From Bacteroidota bacterium (GTDB lineage Bacteria; Bacteroidota; Bacteroidia; B-17B0; Aurantibacillaceae), in NCBI GenBank assembly GCA_013697245.1, contig JACCXH010000062.1:1-64000 (forward strand): DNA of 64,000 nt, given 5' to 3'. The notes beneath the pieces are model-generated. The model was not told the origin of the DNA. It ran no database searches and saw only the letters and a program-made list of their open reading frames with translations. The position numbers and the translations under genes are program-made. Of the stretch, positions 42,421-57,354 are shown one piece after another; positions within the stretch are counted from its first letter, which is position 1, and the number at the start of each line of letters is the position of its first letter.

Positions 42421-45400
42421 CTATTCTTTAAGCAGCTTCTTATAAAATGGTTTTCCATTTATTTCCACTTTTAAAAAGTAAGTGCCATTAGCTAAATTTA
42501 AATTAGAAACCGAAAATTTTTGTTCTACTCCCCCAGCTTCTTCTTTTAATTCTATAGCTTTTAGCTCTCTTCCAAAAATATCTATTAAAGCAATTTTAAT
42601 TTTTGAATTTTGCGGATTTTCTAATTTAAAGTTTACCTGATTTGTAAACGGATTTGGAAAAACCTCTAAGCTTATTAAATCTGAATTTTCTTTTATACCT
42701 GCAACTACAGTTGTAGTATCAACTTTCTGGCCGTTACTACTAATAACATTGCTAAATAAACCTGCACCGTTCTCGGCCTTAACATTAAAAAAATAAATAA
42801 AATTTTGGGTTAGGTTTAAAGTATGCGCCGTAACAGATGTTGCGCCCAAATTACTTGTCCAAGCTTGCGTATTTGTTGCGCCGGGTGCTGTACCAATACT
42901 ATACCAATACCTGAAAATTGCAGAGTTAGGATCGAGCGAGGTACCCCAATTTGCCCGTAAAGAATCTGTTGTGTTTACCGTACTTATATCAGCCGCAGGA
43001 CCATCATTTATAAAGGCAATATTGGAAGGCGGAGTCCAGTCAACATTTACATCATGAAAATAAATTGACGATAAATTCCCTGCTGTATCTTGACAAATAG
43101 ATTTTATTTTTCCGGCACTTAATAAAGGGCTGGTATTTAAATAGCGCATTTCGTTTGCCAAACCGCTGCCAACATTTACATTTACAGAACCTGCCCTAGA
43201 ACGGTAAACTTTTATTTCATCAATACTAAATTTGCAATTCCCACTTCTGAAAGAAACATAACTGCCGTTGGCATATGGTGTTGCATCTGTCCATGTAGCA
43301 ATTAGGCCGTTATTCCAGTAAACAGAAATTTTTCCTGTAATTCTATCAAAGATCACTTTAATATCATACCATTGAGCTGCAGAAAATGTATGCGTTATAG
43401 ATACTTGAGGTGTACCAATAACATCGTTTACGGTTTTATATATTTCAACTTTTTGATCATCTAATCTAAACCAAACAAAATAAGAATTGTTTCTGTTTGG
43501 CAAAGTTGGATTGTCGCAGGCAAAATGTAAACCCGCACGACGGGTTGTACCGGTACCTTCAAACTTTGCTAAAAAATGATACATGTAACGGTTACTTAAT
43601 GATTGCGTTAAAGCTGCGTAAATATTTGTGTTACCCGCTGCTGGACTTGTTTCATCTGTTTGCACCAACGCGTTGCCGCTAATGCCCCAAATACCTACTG
43701 TTGGTGTCCATTCCGGGTGAATAGCGTTATCAAAGTTATCCGCTAAAAATCCTTTGGTATAATTGGCACGCCATTCTGTTCCGTTAAAATCACTTACCTG
43801 GTAATATCCTTTTTCAACCCCGCTTCCTCCAATATTATCCACGTCAGTAATAGTTGCCGTAAATGCGGCAGTCTTCCAAGCGTTAGTAGTTGCAACTGCT
43901 GTAGTTGGTGCAATGTTATCTGCAGGTGTAGCAACTACTGTTCCATTCATAATATACCCTGCAGCCCATCCTGCGGCAGGTGTAGCGCAATCGCTTCTAA
44001 ATTCAACCAAAACACTGTCGTTAACAGATGTAATTGGCCCTGGGTTTACAGTGCCTGTATATTGGCCAACCAATGGTGAATTGATCGATCCACCATTATA
44101 AATAAATAAATTATCATATCCGCTTTCAAGATTAAAAGAGGTGAAACTTAAAGTAATATTTGTGGTTCCTGCTTTTGTGAATAACCAAAATTTACGTTCA
44201 TCATTACCGTAATTTGTAGTTGGACCACCAGAGTCGTAAAATGTACCGGTAGCTGTTGTATAGGTTGCTGTAATAGAATAAGTATTGTTTATTATTTTAT
44301 AATATTTTGCCCAATTCCAATATTGTCCCGGATCGTTATGTGTTTGGTTAGGGAACATTTGGTGTCCCTTTACTTTTACGCACGAGCCCTGCAAACACTG
44401 CTGGGTTGTGCCATTGCAACCAGGACCATAAAAAGTACGAAGTGGATTAATGGCGTTGTCTGTACAAATATCTTTTACTAAAGCGCCGGATGTTGTATAC
44501 ATAGCATTTGTATACCATGATGCCGTATTGTTATAACCTTCATGCTCGATACCAACTGTGTATGGATTCTCACTTCCAACATGCCATGCTTTGGCAGACT
44601 CCAATACCATTTGAGTGATCTGCCCGTCAGAGCTTCTTACCACATAATGTGCTGAAACACTTGCTGCACAATTTTGAAACCAGGAAATGCAACCGGCATA
44701 TGAACCTTCTACATCATGAATAGTAACCGCAGATATTTGTGTGCCACCTCTACTGCTGTAATTACAGGATCCGGCAGGTGTGTATATTGCAGACGGATAA
44801 TCGGGAGACATAATACTTGCGGCGGAAGTTAATTTAAATGTTTGTCCGCTCTCACTTTTTATGGAAGTACTATTAATGATAATACTTTTTGAGCTTAATA
44901 CAGAATAGTTATCGCCAAATATTTTTTGAAGATCTATTTTGTGATCCGGAAAATCATATACATCCTGAAAACCTGAATTACTAAGGAACCAATACACCTG
45001 GTATAAATGTGCGTTTAAAGCAAAATTATTTTGAAGATCGTCCGTAACAGGTAATTCGCTTAATTCAATTAAGATCGTTTGATATTTACTTAAGTCGGAA
45101 GAAAATTGATGCTGTTGAGTTTGTAATTGACCAAAGGCCTTTGCATAAGCCAGAATAGAAGTTTCCGGAGAAGAAATAATTTCTTTTTCAGAAAAACCCG
45201 AAAGTTGGGAAATGCGTGACAAGTTATTTCTAAAATAATTTTTACCGTCTAAAATTAAACCCATAACGCCATAAGCTCTTGGATACCCAATGCAGCTTGG
45301 CTCGGTAGTATTATCCAGATGTTGAAAACGGGTTTGGGTGTAGGATATAGCTTCTAAAATTCCTTTTGGCACAGAAGGATTTAAAGCGTACGCTTTTTTA

Positions 45401-45492
45401 AATGATCGAGAAAAAGGGTTCTCAACTAACAGATCATTGGCATTTGAAATAAAAAAGGTAAAAGAAATAACCGCAGCAAAAATTTTTTTCAT
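42421..45492 (-). CDS. Large T9SS-secreted N-acetylmuramoyl-L-alanine amidase
   Basis: A 1023-residue cell-surface or secreted muralytic enzyme. Signal peptide (1-18), then a helical lysozyme-like N-domain (about 25-165; VPKGILEAISYTQTRFQHL, YGVMGLILDG), an Amidase_2 domain (about 235-400; SAVTIHDVEG, SAHYVVRSSDGQITQMV, YTVGIEHEGYNN and the GHQMFPNQTHNDPG zinc region), a CUB-like domain (about 405-510), a propeptide/LamG-like stretch (about 590-760), one FN3-like domain, and a type A T9SS domain (about 955-1023; VFPNPFTNQVNFKL, NGTYFLKVEI, YKKLLKE). Zinc ligands His, His and Asp/His appear present. Likely targets: prey or competitor peptidoglycan. Confidence 0.85.
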   Translation of the reverse strand: MKKIFAAVISFTFFISNANDLLVENPFSRSFKKAYALNPSVPKGILEAISYTQTRFQHLDNTTEPSCIGYPRAYGVMGLILDGKNYFRNNLSRISQLSGFSEKEIISSPETSILAYAKAFGQLQTQQHQFSSDLSKYQTILIELSELPVTDDLQNNFALNAHLYQVYWFLSNSGFQDVYDFPDHKIDLQKIFGDNYSVLSSKSIIINSTSIKSESGQTFKLTSAASIMSPDYPSAIYTPAGSCNYSSRGGTQISAVTIHDVEGSYAGCISWFQNCAASVSAHYVVRSSDGQITQMVLESAKAWHVGSENPYTVGIEHEGYNNTASWYTNAMYTTSGALVKDICTDNAINPLRTFYGPGCNGTTQQCLQGSCVKVKGHQMFPNQTHNDPGQYWNWAKYYKIINNTYSITATYTTATGTFYDSGGPTTNYGNDERKFWLFTKAGTTNITLSFTSFNLESGYDNLFIYNGGSINSPLVGQYTGTVNPGPITSVNDSVLVEFRSDCATPAAGWAAGYIMNGTVVATPADNIAPTTAVATTNAWKTAAFTATITDVDNIGGSGVEKGYYQVSDFNGTEWRANYTKGFLADNFDNAIHPEWTPTVGIWGISGNALVQTDETSPAAGNTNIYAALTQSLSNRYMYHFLAKFEGTGTTRRAGLHFACDNPTLPNRNNSYFVWFRLDDQKVEIYKTVNDVIGTPQVSITHTFSAAQWYDIKVIFDRITGKISVYWNNGLIATWTDATPYANGSYVSFRSGNCKFSIDEIKVYRSRAGSVNVNVGSGLANEMRYLNTSPLLSAGKIKSICQDTAGNLSSIYFHDVNVDWTPPSNIAFINDGPAADISTVNTTDSLRANWGTSLDPNSAIFRYWYSIGTAPGATNTQAWTSNLGATSVTAHTLNLTQNFIYFFNVKAENGAGLFSNVISSNGQKVDTTTVVAGIKENSDLISLEVFPNPFTNQVNFKLENPQNSKIKIALIDIFGRELKAIELKEEAGGVEQKFSVSNLNLANGTYFLKVEINGKPFYKKLLKE

Positions 45493-47667: not shown

Positions 47668-48102
47668 TTGAACTTACCATTAAAATATCCTTTATTTAAT
47701 ACCAAACTCAAAAAGCAAAAGGACCAAACCTTTATTTTTGATGAAGTACGAAAGAAATGGCTGCTTTTAACCCCCGAAGAATGGGTAAGGCAACATTTGA
47801 TCCACTTTTTGGTTCGCGAAAAAAAATACCCTGCCTCTTTGATCTCTATTGAAAAAGAAATTACTTTAAACGACCTTAAAAAACGTTACGATATTGTTAT
47901 TTACAACAAACAATTAATGCCGGTTGTAGTAATTGAATGTAAAGCACCTTATATCGAGTTAGACAAAAATGTGGTTGAACAAGCTTTGCGTTATAACCTT
48001 ATTATTAAAGCAAAGTATTTAATGATTAGTAATGGCGTTAGCGATATTACATTTGATAGTTTGAATCAGGTTGTTAATTTGCCCGATCACGCAGAGCTTT
48101 AA
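47668..48102 (+). CDS. HSDR_N-type PD-(D/E)XK nuclease-like protein
   Basis: A 144-residue stand-alone domain resembling the N-terminus of type I restriction R subunits. It has LTPEEWVRQHLIHFLV near 32-47 and the nuclease-like core KKRYDIVIYN then VVVIECKAP (Asp, Glu-x-Lys pattern), followed by QALRYNLIIKAKYLMISNG. Such single-domain genes are widespread in Bacteroidota outside restriction loci. No HsdM/HsdS is nearby, so a housekeeping nucleic-acid role is more likely. TTG start. It overlaps the convergent esterase by 4 nt. Confidence 0.8.
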   Translation: MNLPLKYPLFNTKLKKQKDQTFIFDEVRKKWLLLTPEEWVRQHLIHFLVREKKYPASLISIEKEITLNDLKKRYDIVIYNKQLMPVVVIECKAPYIELDKNVVEQALRYNLIIKAKYLMISNGVSDITFDSLNQVVNLPDHAEL

Positions 48103-49229
48103 TTCTTAATGAATTTCACAACGTTTTGCTCTGTACCGTTATTTATATTCAAAAAATAAATTCCATTCGTTAAAGTGCTTACATCTATTGTATTTGTAAT
48201 GCTTTCAGCAATTACTATTTTCCCCAAAAGATCAGTCACTTTTAATTTTATTTCGGAAACGCCATCAACAAATAATTTTTCTGTAACAGGGTTAGGATAT
48301 ATTTTAATAGTATTCTTTAAAGAATTTTCGTGCACACCTACATTTGGAATGAACTGATTAAGTTTATACTGCCTGAAAAAACGCCAGATCTCAACGCTGG
48401 CATTAAAATCTTCGTTAGTATTTGCTATTACGGGAAAAGAGCCGGGCCAGGAATGGCTTCCTCCGGTTACTTTAAAAAGTTCAACACTCGCACCATTTGT
48501 GCCACCAATGTATTTATAATTTACCGCTGTAGAATTATCAGAAGTATTAATATTTGGAATAGAGAAAGTTATTGGTGCCGTGTTACAATTATTATGAATT
48601 CGCCATTTTTTTACAACACTATCAATGTGAGCAAAAGTGGCATCACCATTATAAGGCACAGTCCCATCGGCAGTACCGTGAATTTCCATTACCGGAAAAG
48701 GTCTTATAGGCGCGCAGCTAAACCAGCTGTTTAACATGCTTCCTGTAACAGAAGCGATAGCGGCAATCCTGTTTGGTAAATTACAAGCCAGGTAGTAGCT
48801 CATAATGCCCCCGTTACTCATGCCACAACTGTAAACAGAGTTAAGATCGATATTATAAAATAATTTTAAGGAATCAATAAGATCGCTCATAAACAACACA
48901 TCGTTCTCGGTTCCTCCAAAGCCGGCATTCCAATATTGATTACCCGCAGGCGCTTTACCATCAGGGAATACCATTAAAAATTTAGCAGTATCTGCAATTG
49001 GCATAAAATTGCTGTATTGTTTTTGCTGTGTTGAGTTGGAAGTGTAACCATGCAAATTCAATATAAGCGGAACAGCCTGGCCTGTATAACTATTAGGTAC
49101 ATACAATCTGAATTTTCTCATGATGTTGTTTGATTTGATGCTATCAACAATAGTTACACCACTCTGCGCAAAATAAAAAAAGCCTGTCATTAAGAACAGG
49201 CTTGTTATTATAAGTTTTTTTAGTCTCAT
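48099..49229 (-). CDS. T9SS-secreted CE1/PHB-depolymerase-like esterase
   Basis: A 376-residue secreted alpha/beta-hydrolase: signal peptide (1-21, ending YFAQ), LILNLHGYTSN oxyanion region near 55-65, nucleophile CGMSNGG near 134-140, acid in EIHGTADGTVPY near 182-193, and His in GGSHSWPG near 254-261. The family covers poly(3-hydroxybutyrate) depolymerases and feruloyl esterases. The C-terminal 70 residues are a type A T9SS domain (IYPNPVTEKLFVDG, VTDLLGKIV, NGIYFLNI, VVKFIKN). It starts 19 nt downstream of dnaN. Confidence 0.87.
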   Translation of the reverse strand: MRLKKLIITSLFLMTGFFYFAQSGVTIVDSIKSNNIMRKFRLYVPNSYTGQAVPLILNLHGYTSNSTQQKQYSNFMPIADTAKFLMVFPDGKAPAGNQYWNAGFGGTENDVLFMSDLIDSLKLFYNIDLNSVYSCGMSNGGIMSYYLACNLPNRIAAIASVTGSMLNSWFSCAPIRPFPVMEIHGTADGTVPYNGDATFAHIDSVVKKWRIHNNCNTAPITFSIPNINTSDNSTAVNYKYIGGTNGASVELFKVTGGSHSWPGSFPVIANTNEDFNASVEIWRFFRQYKLNQFIPNVGVHENSLKNTIKIYPNPVTEKLFVDGVSEIKLKVTDLLGKIVIAESITNTIDVSTLTNGIYFLNINNGTEQNVVKFIKN

Positions 49230-50442: not shown

Positions 50443-51483
50443 CTATTTTTTAACAGAATCGTGTGGTGTGAAATAGGTTGGCGTGATTAATAATTTTCCA
50501 AAAACAAAATATTGGATCATTGCCCATTCCTTATCGTTTGCAAAGCGCATAAATAACCTATCGGGATCGGCTGTGTAAGTAACGCCATGTTCCGGAATTA
50601 TGTCAGGGTTTGGCTGTTTATGATAGAATTTATATTCGTTGGTTTTAAAATCCGTTGTAGTAATACTCATTATGCAAAAAGGTTTGCTTGCAGAAAGCGA
50701 GTCTGTCACTTTTTTACTTTTTCCGGTAATTAATACTTCGTAAGAGATGTTTTGAAAATAAGCCAGGTATTGTTTCATTTTCATTTCATCAAATGGTATC
50801 GCATTATTCTTGGCGTTTTTTAGCGTAAAAGATGTCGTGCTATTAATATCGATGGTAAAAGACGAATCAGGCATATTAAAATGCTGTACTTTGATCTGTT
50901 TTAACTGGGGTGGAATAAAATTCAATACGAGCCTATCACGCCATTCATTTTCTTTTGCAATAAACCTTGGTTGAAGATATCCTTTGAAGCCCGGTATAAA
51001 ACACACATATGGCTCTTTGTAGTTTTCGCCCGATCCAACATCCGTTAAAAGCATGTAAGAGCCCTCGGAGTCAGGCGTTTCGTGGCCAACATAATATTGT
51101 TTGACAAGATCATTACCCGCATAAATCTCAACTTTTAAAGCATTTGCCGACATGAATTTTAAAACACTTTCTTTTGCCGTTTTTTCAACCGGCATTTTTA
51201 CCTCCACGTGTTTTATAACCTCCATTAAATTTAGTATAGCATCGGTGCGGCAGCTATATTTATCGTTTACTATCCAACCTTTTGCCGTGCGGGTAATGGT
51301 GGATTTATCTCCTTCTTTATCTGCAATAAAAATTTTTGTAATGGCGGCGGTATCTAATACTTTAAAGCTTCTTGAATCTTCGTCAACGGTTGTTGACCTA
51401 TGTTTTGATCTATAAATAAAAATTGAAACAACAGTAAGAATCAATAAAATTGTAATAATAACAATTGAAGAGGATTTTTTCAT
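50443..51483 (-). CDS. DUF4340 membrane-anchored protein
   Basis: A 346-residue protein with one N-terminal membrane segment (about 7-25) and a large extracytoplasmic domain. Repeated strand patterns such as ITKIFIADKEGDKSTITR, GWIVNDKYSCRTDAI, VEIYAGNDLVKQYYVGHETP and GSYMLL are those of DUF4340. In many bacteria, DUF4340 proteins accompany GldG-type ABC components; no such ABC genes are here. It follows the SprF-like gene by 24 nt and probably shares its transcript. Function unknown. Confidence 0.8.
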   Translation of the reverse strand: MKKSSSIVIITILLILTVVSIFIYRSKHRSTTVDEDSRSFKVLDTAAITKIFIADKEGDKSTITRTAKGWIVNDKYSCRTDAILNLMEVIKHVEVKMPVEKTAKESVLKFMSANALKVEIYAGNDLVKQYYVGHETPDSEGSYMLLTDVGSGENYKEPYVCFIPGFKGYLQPRFIAKENEWRDRLVLNFIPPQLKQIKVQHFNMPDSSFTIDINSTTSFTLKNAKNNAIPFDEMKMKQYLAYFQNISYEVLITGKSKKVTDSLSASKPFCIMSITTTDFKTNEYKFYHKQPNPDIIPEHGVTYTADPDRLFMRFANDKEWAMIQYFVFGKLLITPTYFTPHDSVKK

Positions 51484-51507: not shown

Positions 51508-52551
51508 CTATTTAAATTCACTACGCGATTCAAACAAAGAGCTGGCTAAATTGTTGAAGCGGAAACCAATTTCAAAACCACCGGCATAGCGGGTAGCAGC
51601 GCGATAACCGGAAACATTGATGTCGTAAGATGTGAAAAAAGCTATATCACCAACTTCATAAATTAACGTAGGGATAATCGCATCTTTTGAACGGTAAAAT
51701 AATCCAATACCTATTCCATTCTCAGTTTTTTGCCCGGTTACTTTAGTACCTACTTTAACACGGTATTTTATGTAAGAACCTGTAACAAATTGCCATGCCT
51801 GACCCTGTCGACTATACAAGAGGGTTGGTGTAACAGAGAATTTTGTGTCTTCAAAATCAAAATGAGTAATTATCTGTCCGGTTGTACGAACTGGGATTCG
51901 ATAAGCAGATCCCGGTCCAAAATCCTGAACAGGCTTATTTAAATGAAACGCGCCAACCGAAATTTTTATTGAAGAAACATCATCGTGATCTTGATCTGTT
52001 TTTACTTTACTATATTCCCAGGCCGCCCCCGCAGCAATATCGGTTGTTGTAAACTGCCTGTATACAACAGTTTCGCCACTTGCAATGGTGTTATCAATAT
52101 TATTTCCATCGAATTGAGAAGCGTAAGTTAACTTGCTGTAATTCGCATTGTTTGAAGAAACACCGCCGGCAATACCTACGCTAAACGCACTTCTTTTACC
52201 GGTTTTAATGATACCGCTTACATTTAATAAAGCATTTGTTTTTTGCAAATTAGCAGATCCAGCTTTATCATTAAAAACAGTTAATCCCATTCCTAAAAAA
52301 GCTTTACGCCTTCTTGATTTAAATAATCCTCCATCCACAGAAACTGCAATTGTTTGAAAAGCCTTGTTCATTGCTGCCCATTGGCTGCGGTAGTTAACAA
52401 TGGCCCTAAAGTAACCATTAAAAAAACCGGTATTAGCAGGGCTGTTAAATAAAGGCGCTTCGTTAATATTAGAAAAATGATTGTCCTGCGCTTTCAAATC
52501 TGCAACACAAATAACTAACAATAAACTAAAAATATATACAATTTTTTTCAT
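51508..52551 (-). CDS. PorP/SprF family T9SS outer-membrane protein
   Basis: Outer-membrane beta-barrel of 347 residues with signal peptide (1-22, ending LKAQ) and the family opening DNHFSNINEAPLFNSPANTG and FRAIVNYRSQW near 48-58. It ends GFEIGFRFN. Family members (PorP, SprF) attach to the secretion machinery or serve as partners for type B CTD cargo. The gene directly upstream encodes exactly such a cargo, so it is best read as that protein's dedicated partner rather than core PorP. 22 nt separate the two. Confidence 0.9.
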   Translation of the reverse strand: MKKIVYIFSLLLVICVADLKAQDNHFSNINEAPLFNSPANTGFFNGYFRAIVNYRSQWAAMNKAFQTIAVSVDGGLFKSRRRKAFLGMGLTVFNDKAGSANLQKTNALLNVSGIIKTGKRSAFSVGIAGGVSSNNANYSKLTYASQFDGNNIDNTIASGETVVYRQFTTTDIAAGAAWEYSKVKTDQDHDDVSSIKISVGAFHLNKPVQDFGPGSAYRIPVRTTGQIITHFDFEDTKFSVTPTLLYSRQGQAWQFVTGSYIKYRVKVGTKVTGQKTENGIGIGLFYRSKDAIIPTLIYEVGDIAFFTSYDINVSGYRAATRYAGGFEIGFRFNNLASSLFESRSEFK

Positions 52552-52573: not shown

Positions 52574-55303
52574 TTACCTCACCAGTGTAACGTTACCTTT
52601 TAAAATTTTTGGTTCGTTAAAGATATTTTTATAGGTTATTAAATAAGCGTAAACACCGGTAATGGCTTGTTGTCCGCTATAATAACCATCCCATCCCATC
52701 ATTGGATCTGTACTTCGAAACACTTCCTGCCCCCATCTGTTCCATATACGGAAATCAAATTCTTTTGCAAATAAGGCACTTCCAACCGGACTAAACATAT
52801 CATTTTTTCCGTCACCATTTGGCGAAAATCCTGTAGGCATTACAATGTCATTCTTTTTATCGGTAAATACAGCAATCACCTCATCAGCTTGATTAAATGC
52901 AATAGCAATCGAATCCATACTTAAAGGCCTTGAGTTTAACGGTGTATGATTTTTGAACTCCCAATGGTGAAAAACAAAAGTAGTATCAATAGGAATTGCT
53001 TTGAAAGGCATTTGCGCTGTAGAGAAATAATTGCCGCTCCATTTATAGTTACTAAGCGGAAGTGTATTCAAAATCACATTACCCGAGCCTGCAGGCTCAA
53101 CATCTACCGTTATCGGGAAAGGGCCGATCATACCATAACACCCAACAGTACCAAATGTTGTCCTTAACCGGTCGCATCGTTTGTATATATCGCGCCTTAA
53201 CTGCGCAGTAAGGGTATCCCATAAGTCAATCGTAGAACTAAATGAACCTGGTATTGGCGCAGACGCAGGATCTTCATGATACTTCATCTCTTTCAGATAC
53301 AAACTTTTTACATAATCAAAATGCGCTAAAATATTATCACATTTTAAAGGGCCATTCAAAAGATCCTGATACCTGTTCCTATACTCTAATTGAAACGTAC
53401 CGTTACCATTGTAAGGGTCCATTAAATAACGCATAATCATTCCATGCGCATTGCCTCCACCCGGACTTACCGCATAAGTACTTGAATGTATTGCGCAAGG
53501 AGAAGTGTAAGCGCTATTATAAGTTAAAGTGTTGGTGGCAACAGCTGTAAAATTAAATATTGCCGGCGTGTTCCATAAATAATAATGCCATTTACTACCA
53601 GGTTTAGTTGTTTGGCCGCCCTTTGCAAAAGCAATATTATAGTTCCAAAGATCACTATTCATAGAATAACTATTAAGAATAATATAATCCATAAAGCTTT
53701 CCTTATCAAGTAAAGACATGACGTGATTATAAAATGAAACATTTTTCATTGTATGAGTTGTAATATAATCATACACACCAGTTCTGAAATTATTTGAGAA
53801 CGTAGCTACAGAACCATCTGTATTATGATAAAAAGCAAGGTCTAGAGAATCGCGGGATTGCTTGTTATAATATCTTTCGTATTCCTTGTCATAGCATTCC
53901 CTTAGATCATACACCCCTTGGTATTTACCATTAATAAATGCAACAACAGGTTTAATGTGCAATGGACTAACCTTTAAATTATTTTTAGCAGCCAACGATT
54001 GATAAAACACATCTCGAATTGCTGTGCCAAAGGCAACACCCGTATTTGTTGGGGAAGGTACGGATGAAAAACTCTCAAAGTCGCCGGCTTTTAAATGCAA
54101 AGTATAAAACGATCTTCTGGGTGTAGTTCCTAATCCGGGTATATTAAAGATATCTCCTTCAAAATTACAACCAAAACCTCGTCGGTCGTCTATCGTAATG
54201 AACAACCCTTTTTGCTTTGTTAACCAGGCCTCATTGGGTGGCCTGCTAATTTGGGCATAACCTTCCGATAACTGAGCCTTATTGTCGTAATACTCCGTAT
54301 GAATGATTGGTCCGGGTGATAAGCCACCGGAATTGAACCAATTGGTATCTGCTTTATCAATAGACAAAGATATTACGCCAAAATCCGGGCTAAATGTATT
54401 ATGTTCCTGATCTATAAAATAGGTATTTGTTTGGCAAAAACTTGGTAAGAAATCTAATGTACAGGTGCTGACAGGTGTCATCGTTGTAGGAAAAGCAACG
54501 GCCCTGAGAACAGTTGTATTCACAATAATAATTCCAATACCGGTAGTGTATGAGTAGATCGCATCTGTCATTGTAGGCACGCTGCCATCCGTAGTGTAGT
54601 GAATTTCAAAACAGGTTCCTGAAGAGTCTGCACCTCCTCCTAGCAAAATATCGACTTGGTTTATTGGATTACTGGAAGGAAAAAAACCACCGGCATTAAC
54701 GGTATTGTTGCTGATGGTAGCCGGTGAAAAGCTTGGTGTTGGAGCATAATCCCTATAATAACTTCCGGTAATAGTTGGGTTTGGCAGTGTAAATGAGTTA
54801 GCGGTGTATAATCGCCAGGCCCCTATGCCCACATTTCCATAATCTACACGGCCCCTGGTATGATTAGCTTTGGTTCTTTGCACAAAAACAGAGTCCCTGA
54901 CAACCCCTTGTGGGGTGGTTAAAATTAACCATTGGTTCTTACACTGGTCTAACGTAAAATTTGCATGAAAATTAGTACCAACAGTGGGTTTACCACTTAA
55001 GAAAACTGCCCGGTATTGTCCAATACCTAACGTAAAAGTTGAAGGAAATGGCCATTTTTTAAGGTTAGATCGATCATTACTTAGCCAATAACCCGATAAG
55101 GTTACTGAGCTTGTATGTGCGTTATAGATCTCTACCCAATCGCTCTGTAACCCGTAATTATCAATAACTCCAGAAAAATTGGTGGCAGAATATTCATTTA
55201 AAACGATAGCCACGCTGGTAGATACTACCTGAGCCCTAAGTGTGTTTATCCCATTTAAAAACAGTAACAAGCCAAAAACTAAAATAAGTTTTCTTTTTAA
55301 CAT
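52574..55303 (-). CDS. CotH-kinase-like surface protein with lamin-tail and type B T9SS domains
   Basis: A 909-residue secreted protein. After the signal peptide (1-24, ending LRAQ): a lamin-tail domain (about 32-150; VLNEYSATNFSG, DWVEIYN, LSGYWLSND), a chitobiase-like FN3 domain (about 215-270; EIHYTTDGSVPTMTDAIY), a CotH-like domain (about 310-690; ISRPPNEAWLTKQKGLFITI, NGKYQGVYDLRECYDKEY), and a gliding-motility-type B CTD (about 825-909; MPTGFSPNGDGKNDMFSP, IWNRWGQEVF, GVYAYLITY). In the CotH core, SDLWNYN is retained, but the expected WDMDxxF reads LWNTPAIF, so the metal-binding Asp residues are missing. It may be a pseudokinase or a binding protein. Own promoter; SprF-like gene downstream. 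Confidence 0.85.
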   Translation of the reverse strand: MLKRKLILVFGLLLFLNGINTLRAQVVSTSVAIVLNEYSATNFSGVIDNYGLQSDWVEIYNAHTSSVTLSGYWLSNDRSNLKKWPFPSTFTLGIGQYRAVFLSGKPTVGTNFHANFTLDQCKNQWLILTTPQGVVRDSVFVQRTKANHTRGRVDYGNVGIGAWRLYTANSFTLPNPTITGSYYRDYAPTPSFSPATISNNTVNAGGFFPSSNPINQVDILLGGGADSSGTCFEIHYTTDGSVPTMTDAIYSYTTGIGIIIVNTTVLRAVAFPTTMTPVSTCTLDFLPSFCQTNTYFIDQEHNTFSPDFGVISLSIDKADTNWFNSGGLSPGPIIHTEYYDNKAQLSEGYAQISRPPNEAWLTKQKGLFITIDDRRGFGCNFEGDIFNIPGLGTTPRRSFYTLHLKAGDFESFSSVPSPTNTGVAFGTAIRDVFYQSLAAKNNLKVSPLHIKPVVAFINGKYQGVYDLRECYDKEYERYYNKQSRDSLDLAFYHNTDGSVATFSNNFRTGVYDYITTHTMKNVSFYNHVMSLLDKESFMDYIILNSYSMNSDLWNYNIAFAKGGQTTKPGSKWHYYLWNTPAIFNFTAVATNTLTYNSAYTSPCAIHSSTYAVSPGGGNAHGMIMRYLMDPYNGNGTFQLEYRNRYQDLLNGPLKCDNILAHFDYVKSLYLKEMKYHEDPASAPIPGSFSSTIDLWDTLTAQLRRDIYKRCDRLRTTFGTVGCYGMIGPFPITVDVEPAGSGNVILNTLPLSNYKWSGNYFSTAQMPFKAIPIDTTFVFHHWEFKNHTPLNSRPLSMDSIAIAFNQADEVIAVFTDKKNDIVMPTGFSPNGDGKNDMFSPVGSALFAKEFDFRIWNRWGQEVFRSTDPMMGWDGYYSGQQAITGVYAYLITYKNIFNEPKILKGNVTLVR

Positions 55304-55452: not shown

Positions 55453-57354
55453 ATGAGCGATATAATACATCACGAATGCGGCGTTGCACTTATTAGGTTG
55501 CTAAAACCGCTAGAATACTACAAAACTAAATATGGTTCGGCAAGATATGGTTTGCATAAACTATATCAAGTGATGGAAAAAATGATCAACCGCGGTCAGG
55601 ATGGAGCTGGTATTGCTACCATAAAATTTGATGCTAAACCCGGCACAACCTACCTGGATCGTTTAAGGTCTATTGAACCAAAAGCTACACAAGATATTTT
55701 CGGTCAAATAAATAATTTATTCGTTAACGCACAACTCAACAATCCGGAAGCGTATAAAAGTGCCAATTGGCAAAAAGAAAATATTCCTTTTTTAGGTGAA
55801 CTCATGCTAGGCCACCTGCGCTATGGTACTTTTGGTAAGAACAGCGTGCACAGTTGCCACCCCTTTAAACGCCAAAATAACTGGATGAGCCGTAACCTGG
55901 TTGTTGCAGGTAATTTTAATTTAACCAATGTAGATGAGCTTTATACCCATTTGGTAGAACTTGGCCAGCATCCGGTAGAGAAAGCCGACACGGTTACCGT
56001 AATGGAAAAGATAGGTCATTTTTTGGATAAAGATAACGACCGTTTATTTAAAAAATTTAAAGAGCAAAACGATAAAAATTACGAGATCAGTAAATTGATA
56101 CAGGCCAATATTGACGTGGCTTCTATTCTTAAAGAAAGCAGCAAGCGCTGGGATGGCGGTTATGTGATGTGTGGTATGATTGGCCATGGAGATGCTTTTG
56201 TTTTGCGCGATCCGAATGGAATTCGCCCTGGATATTTTTATCAGGACGATGAAGTAATTGTTGTAGCCAGCGAACGCCCCGTTATACAAACTGTTTTTAA
56301 TGTGCCCTTTGAAAATGTAAAAGAAATTAAACCCGGCCATGCCATCATCATTAAAAAAGATGGTACATTAACCGAGGAAGAAATAATTGAACCTCAAAAA
56401 AAATTATCCTGCTCGTTCGAGCGTATTTATTTTAGCCGTGGTAACGATGCTGATATTTACAAAGAGCGCAACCAGTTAGGAAGAAATTTAACGCAAAGTG
56501 TTTTAAAGGCGGTAAACAACGATCTTGAAAATACTGTTTTCAGTTACATACCAAATACTGCAGAAGTGGCATTTGGCGGGCTAATTGAAGGCTTAGACGA
56601 TCATACCAATACCTGGAAAGCGGAAGAGATCTTAAAATTAAATGGAAATTTATCGGGACCAGAATTAAAAAAAATATTAGCCACGCACCCACGAATACAT
56701 AAAGTTGTTTTAAAAGATGCCAAGCAACGAACATTTATTACTCCCGATGAAGGCCGCGACAGTCTTGTAAATTTAGTGTACGATATTACTTACGGCACTG
56801 TAAAAAAAGATGTGGATAGTTTGGTTATTTTGGATGATAGTATTGTTAGAGGCACAACTTTAAAACAAAGTATCTTAAGTATTTTGGATCGTCTTGGTCC
56901 TAAAAAAATAATTGTAGTAAGTTCTGCTCCGCAAATAAGATATCCCGATTGTTACGGTATTGATATGGCTGTAATGAGCAAATTTGTTGCCTTTGAAGCC
57001 GCTATTTCCTTATTAAAACATCAGGGCAAAGAAGCGCTTATTCAGGACGTTTATCAACGCGCGAAAAAAGAAGTTGAAAAACCGAAAGAAGAACAGGTAA
57101 ATTTGGTAAAAGAAATTTACGCAAATTTTTCTGCAGAACAGATCTCTGATAAAATTGCAGAATTAATAAAACCTAAAAACCTTAACGCTGAATTAGTTCT
57201 TATTTACCAAAAATTAGATGGCTTGCACAGCGCTTGTCCAGATAATTTAGGTGATTGGTATTTTAGTGGTAACTACCCTACCCCGGGTGGTAACAAGGTA
57301 AGCAACCAGGCCTTTGTAAATTATATGGAAGGTAATAATGTGCGAGCTTATTAA
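55453..57354 (+). CDS. purF: Amidophosphoribosyltransferase, long Bacteroidota form
   Basis: First enzyme of purine synthesis, moving glutamine amide nitrogen to PRPP. At 633 residues it is longer than the usual 500. N-terminal glutaminase: ECGV with the nucleophile at Cys9, so eight residues must be removed to free the Cys; NRGQDGAGIAT near 47-57; GHLRYGTFG near 117; DPNGIRPGYF near 255. C-terminal PRPP site VILDDSIVRGTT near 456-467. The extra length lies in insertions within the glutaminase (about 90-115 and 195-225) and a C-terminal extension. The only other purine-type gene in the window is the probable purC at its right end. Confidence 0.9.
   Translation: MSDIIHHECGVALIRLLKPLEYYKTKYGSARYGLHKLYQVMEKMINRGQDGAGIATIKFDAKPGTTYLDRLRSIEPKATQDIFGQINNLFVNAQLNNPEAYKSANWQKENIPFLGELMLGHLRYGTFGKNSVHSCHPFKRQNNWMSRNLVVAGNFNLTNVDELYTHLVELGQHPVEKADTVTVMEKIGHFLDKDNDRLFKKFKEQNDKNYEISKLIQANIDVASILKESSKRWDGGYVMCGMIGHGDAFVLRDPNGIRPGYFYQDDEVIVVASERPVIQTVFNVPFENVKEIKPGHAIIIKKDGTLTEEEIIEPQKKLSCSFERIYFSRGNDADIYKERNQLGRNLTQSVLKAVNNDLENTVFSYIPNTAEVAFGGLIEGLDDHTNTWKAEEILKLNGNLSGPELKKILATHPRIHKVVLKDAKQRTFITPDEGRDSLVNLVYDITYGTVKKDVDSLVILDDSIVRGTTLKQSILSILDRLGPKKIIVVSSAPQIRYPDCYGIDMAVMSKFVAFEAAISLLKHQGKEALIQDVYQRAKKEVEKPKEEQVNLVKEIYANFSAEQISDKIAELIKPKNLNAELVLIYQKLDGLHSACPDNLGDWYFSGNYPTPGGNKVSNQAFVNYMEGNNVRAY

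Follow-up and report, generated by a model that had tools for sequence, protein, structure and literature searches.

Gene organization at the locus

The window, i.e., the whole stretch of 64,000 nt that was analyzed (positions 1 to 64,000 of the forward strand of contig JACCXH010000062.1, assembly GCA_013697245.1, from a seemingly uncultured Bacteroidota bacterium of the Aurantibacillaceae), harbours on its reverse strand a gene for a 909-residue protein with a CotH domain, followed directly downstream by a gene of the porP/sprF family and preceded by a divergently oriented purF-like gene. The following features are relevant here:

51508..52551, (-) strand: gene for a PorP/SprF-family outer-membrane protein that lies 22 bp downstream and probably acts as shuttle and anchor (TIGR03519, 146.3 bits; PF11751, 103.6 bits)
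52574..55303, (-) strand: coding sequence, 909 aa, with the order lamin tail domain (LTD), Fn3-associated domain, putative CotH pseudokinase, beta-rich stretch, T9SS type B C-terminal sorting domain (CTD) (open reading frame, profile searches, model, dN/dS about 0.07)
55229..55303, (-) strand: putative signal peptide, about aa 1-25, hydrophobic, ending in LRAQ (by eye; helix 2-23 in the model)
54887..55207, (-) strand: LTD, aa 33-139 (PF00932, 38.2 bits, cut-off 34.3)
54458..54607, (-) strand: Fn3-associated domain (Fn3_assoc), aa 233-282 (PF13287, 26.1 bits, cut-off 23)
53132..54385, (-) strand: CotH kinase fold, aa 307-724 (5JD9, Z 29.9, rmsd 2.8, 331 residues aligned)
53636..53656, (-) strand: SDLWNYN, aa 550-556, catalytic Asp551 (corresponding to CotH D228) and Asn556 retained (alignment)
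53555..53578, (-) strand: LWNTPAIF, aa 576-583, adenine Trp577 retained, Asn578 in place of the D251 equivalent, Pro580 in place of the next Asp (alignment)
52577..52840, (-) strand: T9SS type B CTD, aa 822-909 (TIGR04131, 46.8 bits, cut-off 35; CHU_C, 55 bits)
55453..57354, (+) strand: PurF-like gene, 633 aa, divergently oriented, marking the syntenic position (TIGR01134, 131.8 bits, below the cut-off of 350)

The original prediction that lamin-tail, FN3, CotH-like and type B T9SS domains are united in one protein of 909 residues was borne out by Pfam and NCBIfam profiles. The CotH profile (PF08757) covers aa 427-677 with its positions 47-292 of 322 (48.9 bits vs a cut-off of 23.8), and the LTD region of the structural model matches lamin Ig-fold structures (Z about 8.4-8.8). 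The genome, 100 % complete by estimate, contains this one CotH match only.

Further genes of the window encode a DUF4340 protein between PorP and dnaN (50443-51483; PF14238, 29.7 bits), syntenic in the window's genus and in genus g30, as well as two proteins with a type A T9SS tail, i.e., a PHB-depolymerase-like esterase (48099-49229) and a 1023-residue amidase (Amidase_2) with a CUB domain (42421-45492). The PurF-like protein is a divergent relative of amidophosphoribosyltransferase, 87-96 % identical among close members.

Predicted export and surface anchoring

Features of a type B substrate found here are (i) a type B CTD, (ii) an adjacent PorP/SprF gene, and (iii) SprA, found in the genome by profile search together with 20 matches to the PorP family and 56 to the type B CTD, of which 19 and 54, respectively, exceed the cut-off. 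Proteins with a type B CTD, known or predicted as adhesins, are described to need a cognate PorP/SprF shuttle that is commonly encoded directly downstream (PMC12618676), and PorP-like proteins to anchor them (PMC9143113). Based on this literature, secretion and surface anchoring of the protein are predicted, with the adjacent PorP/SprF protein presumably being its cognate partner. Export would proceed by Sec and then by the type IX secretion system, whereupon the type B CTD would hand the protein to the PorP/SprF barrel, holding it on the cell surface.

Fold and active site of the CotH domain

An AlphaFold2 model was built from 26 orthologues (alignment A1), from which the orthologue of genome G012 (L066) was excluded due to its split frame. 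The model has a mean pLDDT of 80.8 and a pTM of 0.73; stretches under pLDDT 50 include residues 409-422 and 584-590, the latter located directly behind the changed motif. Foldseek placed 5JDA and 5JD9 on top (E about 1.7e-9), and residues 307-724 share 12 % identity with Bacillus cereus CotH (5JD9) over the aligned residues (331 of 358), the next-best fold reaching only Z 11.2. Sequence searches of the PDB with the window protein or with the 26-sequence profile A1 did not reach CotH; a canonical CotH (L002) links to 5JD9 by sequence (E 9.8e-23). On the level of the predicted structure, the CotH kinase fold is thus confirmed.

A MAFFT alignment of the window protein, 5JD9 and canonical CotH domains places D551, N556, E469 and W577 on chain positions D224, N229, E124 and W246 of 5JD9, and N578 and P580 on the Asp positions D247 and D249. 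This agrees with the original prediction of a retained first motif (SDLWNYN) and a second one (LWNTPAIF) with Asn and Pro replacing both Asp, for which an alignment with CotH had been proposed as a check. The two Asp positions of the window protein are separated by 23 residues, as are D228 and D251 of Bacillus subtilis CotH, and because of this equal spacing D251 is taken as the first Asp of the WDxD motif. The B. subtilis mutants D228Q and D251A are reported to be inactive (PMC7821199). The CotH equivalents of PKA D166, N171 and D184 have been named, and adenine is described as sandwiched by Tyr142 and Trp245 (PMC12189002); the latter is equated here with chain position 246 of 5JD9 and hence with Trp577. 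The window protein accordingly retains the catalytic Asp551, Asn556, Glu469 and the adenine-stacking Trp577; the metal-binding Asp is Asn578, with Pro580 two places on. Since many other CotH proteins from related genomes have Asn at the second Asp of WDxD (WDLN, WDMN), loss of this residue alone means little. Judged from these sequences, the first Asp of WDxD is the telling position and the second is not diagnostic.

Conservation of the altered site among orthologues

Orthologues were sought in 87 genomes, all from the window's family (an order-level search also covered these 87 only). The gene is present in all 40 genomes searched from the window's genus (g1), whole in most of them and cut by contig ends in some; the frame is split in two in genome G012, and the fragments from G033 and G064 miss the motif. 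The window's genus (38 readable orthologues) and genus g31 (1 readable) form the clade considered in the following. Asn578 and Pro580 (N-x-P) are present in 39/39 readable orthologues of this clade, and as these come from separate genomes, an artefact of sequencing or assembly is excluded. Retention of the other site residues differs: Glu469 is found in 39/39, Trp577 in 38/39 and Asn556 in 37/39 orthologues, while position 551 is Asp in 27 and Asn in 12 of them. Trp577, Asn578 and Pro580 are invariant across 26 aligned sequences of 47-79 % identity; a deep member (L098) has Ala in place of the adenine Trp.

Outside the clade, the D251-equivalent Asp is retained in 67 of 73 readable rows. The six exceptions belong to genera g32 (L127-L129; SNTD, with Asn at the DFG place and Asp two places on) and g26 (L099-L101; WNMP in the three read, i.e., likewise N-x-P). 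Genera g33, g28 and g25 have the canonical site in the rows read, g30 has WDMN, and in g29 and g27 the DFG-equivalent Asp is retained with the first (catalytic) Asp being lost (L124-L126). The loss of different active-site residues at this PorP-linked CotH gene in g29, g27 and g32 suggests, at the sequence level, a repeated loss of kinase function. Loss of the first Asp is found more often in the absence of the metal Asp, with 12/39 clade orthologues vs 3/67 Asp-keeping rows (L124-L126; Fisher p 0.0003, uncorrected for kinship). The gene is absent from some genomes of the family, several of genus g33 having no full-length match.

A class-level search at 1e-40 gave a match in 60 of 149 genomes, 5 of the 60 lying within the family. 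Among the best 30 loci of this search, 26 were counted (two copies of in-genus paralogues, one repeat of L025, and L199, read in the wrong frame, were left out). Each of these 26 loci, none of which belongs to the family, has D, N, W, D, D.

Chromosomal position and direction of change

Synteny was counted over loci L062-L130, each counted once. In 61 of the 63 loci with sufficient DNA, the next gene downstream is a PorP gene in the same orientation, the exceptions being L100 and L101, both of g26. The divergent purF is present upstream in 48 of 57 loci, i.e., in 29/30 of the window's genus, 5/5 of g30 and 1/1 of g29, as well as in the three genera with a canonical site (g33, 10/10; g25, 2/2; g28, 1/1), the orthologues of which also have the PorP gene (12/12, 2/2 and 1/1, respectively); it was found in none of the loci of g26 (0/3), g27 (0/2) and g32 (0/3). 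Based on the shared PorP and purF neighbours, the canonical (g33, g28, g25) and the degenerate (g1) forms represent the same gene at the same place. Since canonical-site orthologues occupy this same chromosomal position, an active-looking kinase has probably turned into a pseudokinase in situ.

Some of these genomes encode canonical CotH paralogues at other places, mostly of about 1000-1160 residues. In G065, several in-frame stops interrupt a CotH paralogue (contig C3, about 83437-86442) about 7 kb away from the intact orthologue; this paralogue seems to be a canonical copy of genus g26 that has decayed.

In a tree of 81 CotH domains, calculated with columns 545-590 excluded, the 37 rows from the window's genus and g31 cluster as a single group (SH-aLRT 99). 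Over the whole tree, 2 changes are needed for the metal-Asp column and 8 for the first-Asp column, counts that cannot separate loss from regain. Asp is likely to be the older state at the metal position, because it is present in the outgroup rows as well as in every row that was read from outside the family; possible as well is the opposite polarity, with an Asn ancestor and Asp regained in g30. Forcing all 40 N-x-P rows together (g26 included) gave a p-AU of 0.62 and a likelihood slightly above that of the free tree. As this constrained tree is not rejected, a single origin of N-x-P is possible.

Selection and changes in other columns

Four pairs of the window gene with finite dS show dN/dS values of 0.060-0.085, with dS of 1.8-2.6 being near saturation, and a fifth pair is saturated; the CotH part of the four pairs yields 0.04-0.077. 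For the unsaturated pair L067-L068, dN/dS is 0.072 at a dS of 0.46. Wherever dS is finite, the values range from 0.03 to 0.085, showing purifying selection on the gene.

For a wider comparison of columns, 54 canonical rows were set against 37 clade rows. The former set excludes L124-L126 (first Asp lost), the long-branched L136 and L025, and the eight rows in which Asn occupies the second Asp position; the latter excludes the fragments L084 and L039, and g32 (L127-L129) and g26 (L099-L101) are in neither. Of 83 columns conserved to at least 95 % in the canonical rows, the clade retains 30 at 95 % or more, including R430, N458, Y461, G463, E469, Cys603, 655, 710 and 722, and loses 19 to 5 % or less, including H355, G356, D358, W555, W559, W560, D578 and D580, with 34 in between. 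From these columns, the scaffold appears to be retained and the site changed. The HGND segment at 355-358 reads PPNE in the clade, and two acidic residues (A408D, D358E) are newly fixed in every row of the 37-row set that has a residue at the respective position, which could in principle replace a metal ligand.

Function of the CotH domain

The prediction of a pseudokinase is supported by the sequences: the DFG-equivalent Asp is lost throughout the clade and the catalytic Asp is Asn in about a third of it, with fold and selection retained. A kinase fold without a conserved catalytic residue that is nevertheless kept under selection is what defines a pseudokinase. The best explanation, to which we assign a probability of about 60 %, is a T9SS-exported, PorP-anchored surface protein with a CotH domain that binds and no longer phosphorylates, and that arose in place. 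According to this explanation, the protein would have arisen before the split of the window's genus and its nearest relatives, from a CotH kinase gene at this place that looked active. The kinase fold would be retained and phosphotransfer lost, because the magnesium-binding (DFG-equivalent) Asp is replaced by Asn and the neighbouring Asp by Pro. The domain would now be retained for a binding or structural purpose, as adhesin, scaffold or ligand receptor, a role also suggested by the single CotH match in the genome, with the LTD and Fn3-like domains providing further contact surfaces. These parts differ in strength. That the domain no longer phosphorylates is quite probable, given that D251A and D228Q inactivate B. 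subtilis CotH. Binding of a surface ligand is a tentative assignment; the binding or adhesive role, for which the type B CTD, the PorP partner and published work speak, is plausible but the weakest step, and no ligand or adhesive motif was found.

The remaining Asp551, Asn556, Glu469 and Trp577 leave room for residual or altered activity. Asn can bind Mg2+ weakly, and Asn578 or another acid might support metal-ATP in an enzyme of altered CotH chemistry; transfer might also be metal-independent, as suggested for CASK. The retention of these four residues in 27 to 39 of the 39 orthologues and the newly fixed acidic positions 358 and 408 would fit such an enzyme, as would CASK itself, which is described to bind ATP without cations and to appear somewhat active (PMC5413348). 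It is nonetheless unlikely, as an enzyme should not tolerate loss of the catalytic Asp in 12 orthologues at several places of the tree, the HGND segment is replaced too, and Fam20C D478A (DFG Asp) is reported to no longer bind ATP (PMC5413348). Allosteric activation of another, active CotH kinase is a mode known from a related secretory family, in which Fam20A acts on Fam20C (PMC5413348), and some members of the window's genus do have canonical CotH paralogues. Since the window genome has one CotH match only and 23 of 37 genomes of the genus likewise have a single match, no partner is seen in many hosts, rendering a Fam20A-like activator very improbable. A decaying gene without function would account for the split frame in G012 and for a divergence faster than that of the neighbours (in L062, 79 % identity vs 87 % for PorP, 96 % for the PurF-like protein and 99 % for DnaN), but is hardly credible in view of gene and position being retained across the genus and of the invariant Trp577, Asn578 and Pro580; it was rejected on the dN/dS values.

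The pocket might also hold ATP or another nucleotide without metal, as a non-catalytic module for structural or signal use. Extracellular ATP is scarce, L098 has Ala for Trp, and HGND has become PPNE, all of which make this assignment improbable despite the near-universal retention of the adenine-stacking Trp. Binding of ATP without cations is described for Fam20A (PMC5413348). One may further speculate that the pseudokinase lineage formed in place holds a metal-free nucleotide that switches or stabilises a PorP-anchored receptor or adhesin, a parallel to Fam20A without a kinase partner, which is a rather improbable variant.

Relation to known systems

The putative pseudokinase shares its fold and the positions of the catalytic Asp, Asn and adenine Trp with the Bacillus CotH kinase (PF08757; 5JD9/5JDA), but differs from it in the Asn and Pro replacing the DFG-equivalent and second Asp and in carrying a T9SS CTD, LTD and Fn3-like domains. 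Bacteroidia also possess canonical CotH-LTD proteins, such as L111 and L104 within the family and L171 from outside it. These are related to the putative pseudokinase over most of the length, and L111 and L104 share the chromosomal place of the latter, with PorP and PurF-like neighbours; in contrast to the window protein, these canonical proteins retain D551, N556, W577, D578 and D580. Like Fam20A, it would be a secreted kinase-like fold with a partly lost catalytic set that is retained for a non-catalytic job (PMC5413348), whereas an active partner as in the case of Fam20C is missing, the window genome having no second CotH match. The combination of a type B CTD with porP/sprF directly downstream resembles SprB-SprF and PG1035-PorP (PMC12618676, PMC9143113); the cargo, however, is predicted to be a CotH pseudokinase and not, as with SprB, a repeat adhesin. 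A cellulosome component (Cthe_0239) is reported with the order LTD, LTD, Fn3, CotH (PMC6083626). In the open-licence literature searched, no paper on a CotH pseudokinase was found, and the main text of a 2025 review of bacterial Ser/Thr pseudokinases does not contain the term 'CotH' (PMC12599244).

CotH domains are usually named kinases by default, which for the window's lineage would be a misleading name. One gene at one place occurs with an intact site (g33, g28, g25), with WDMN (g30) and with a lost site (window's genus), thereby forming a natural series that need not match the order in time and that makes the transition from kinase to pseudokinase in secreted bacterial kinases directly testable.
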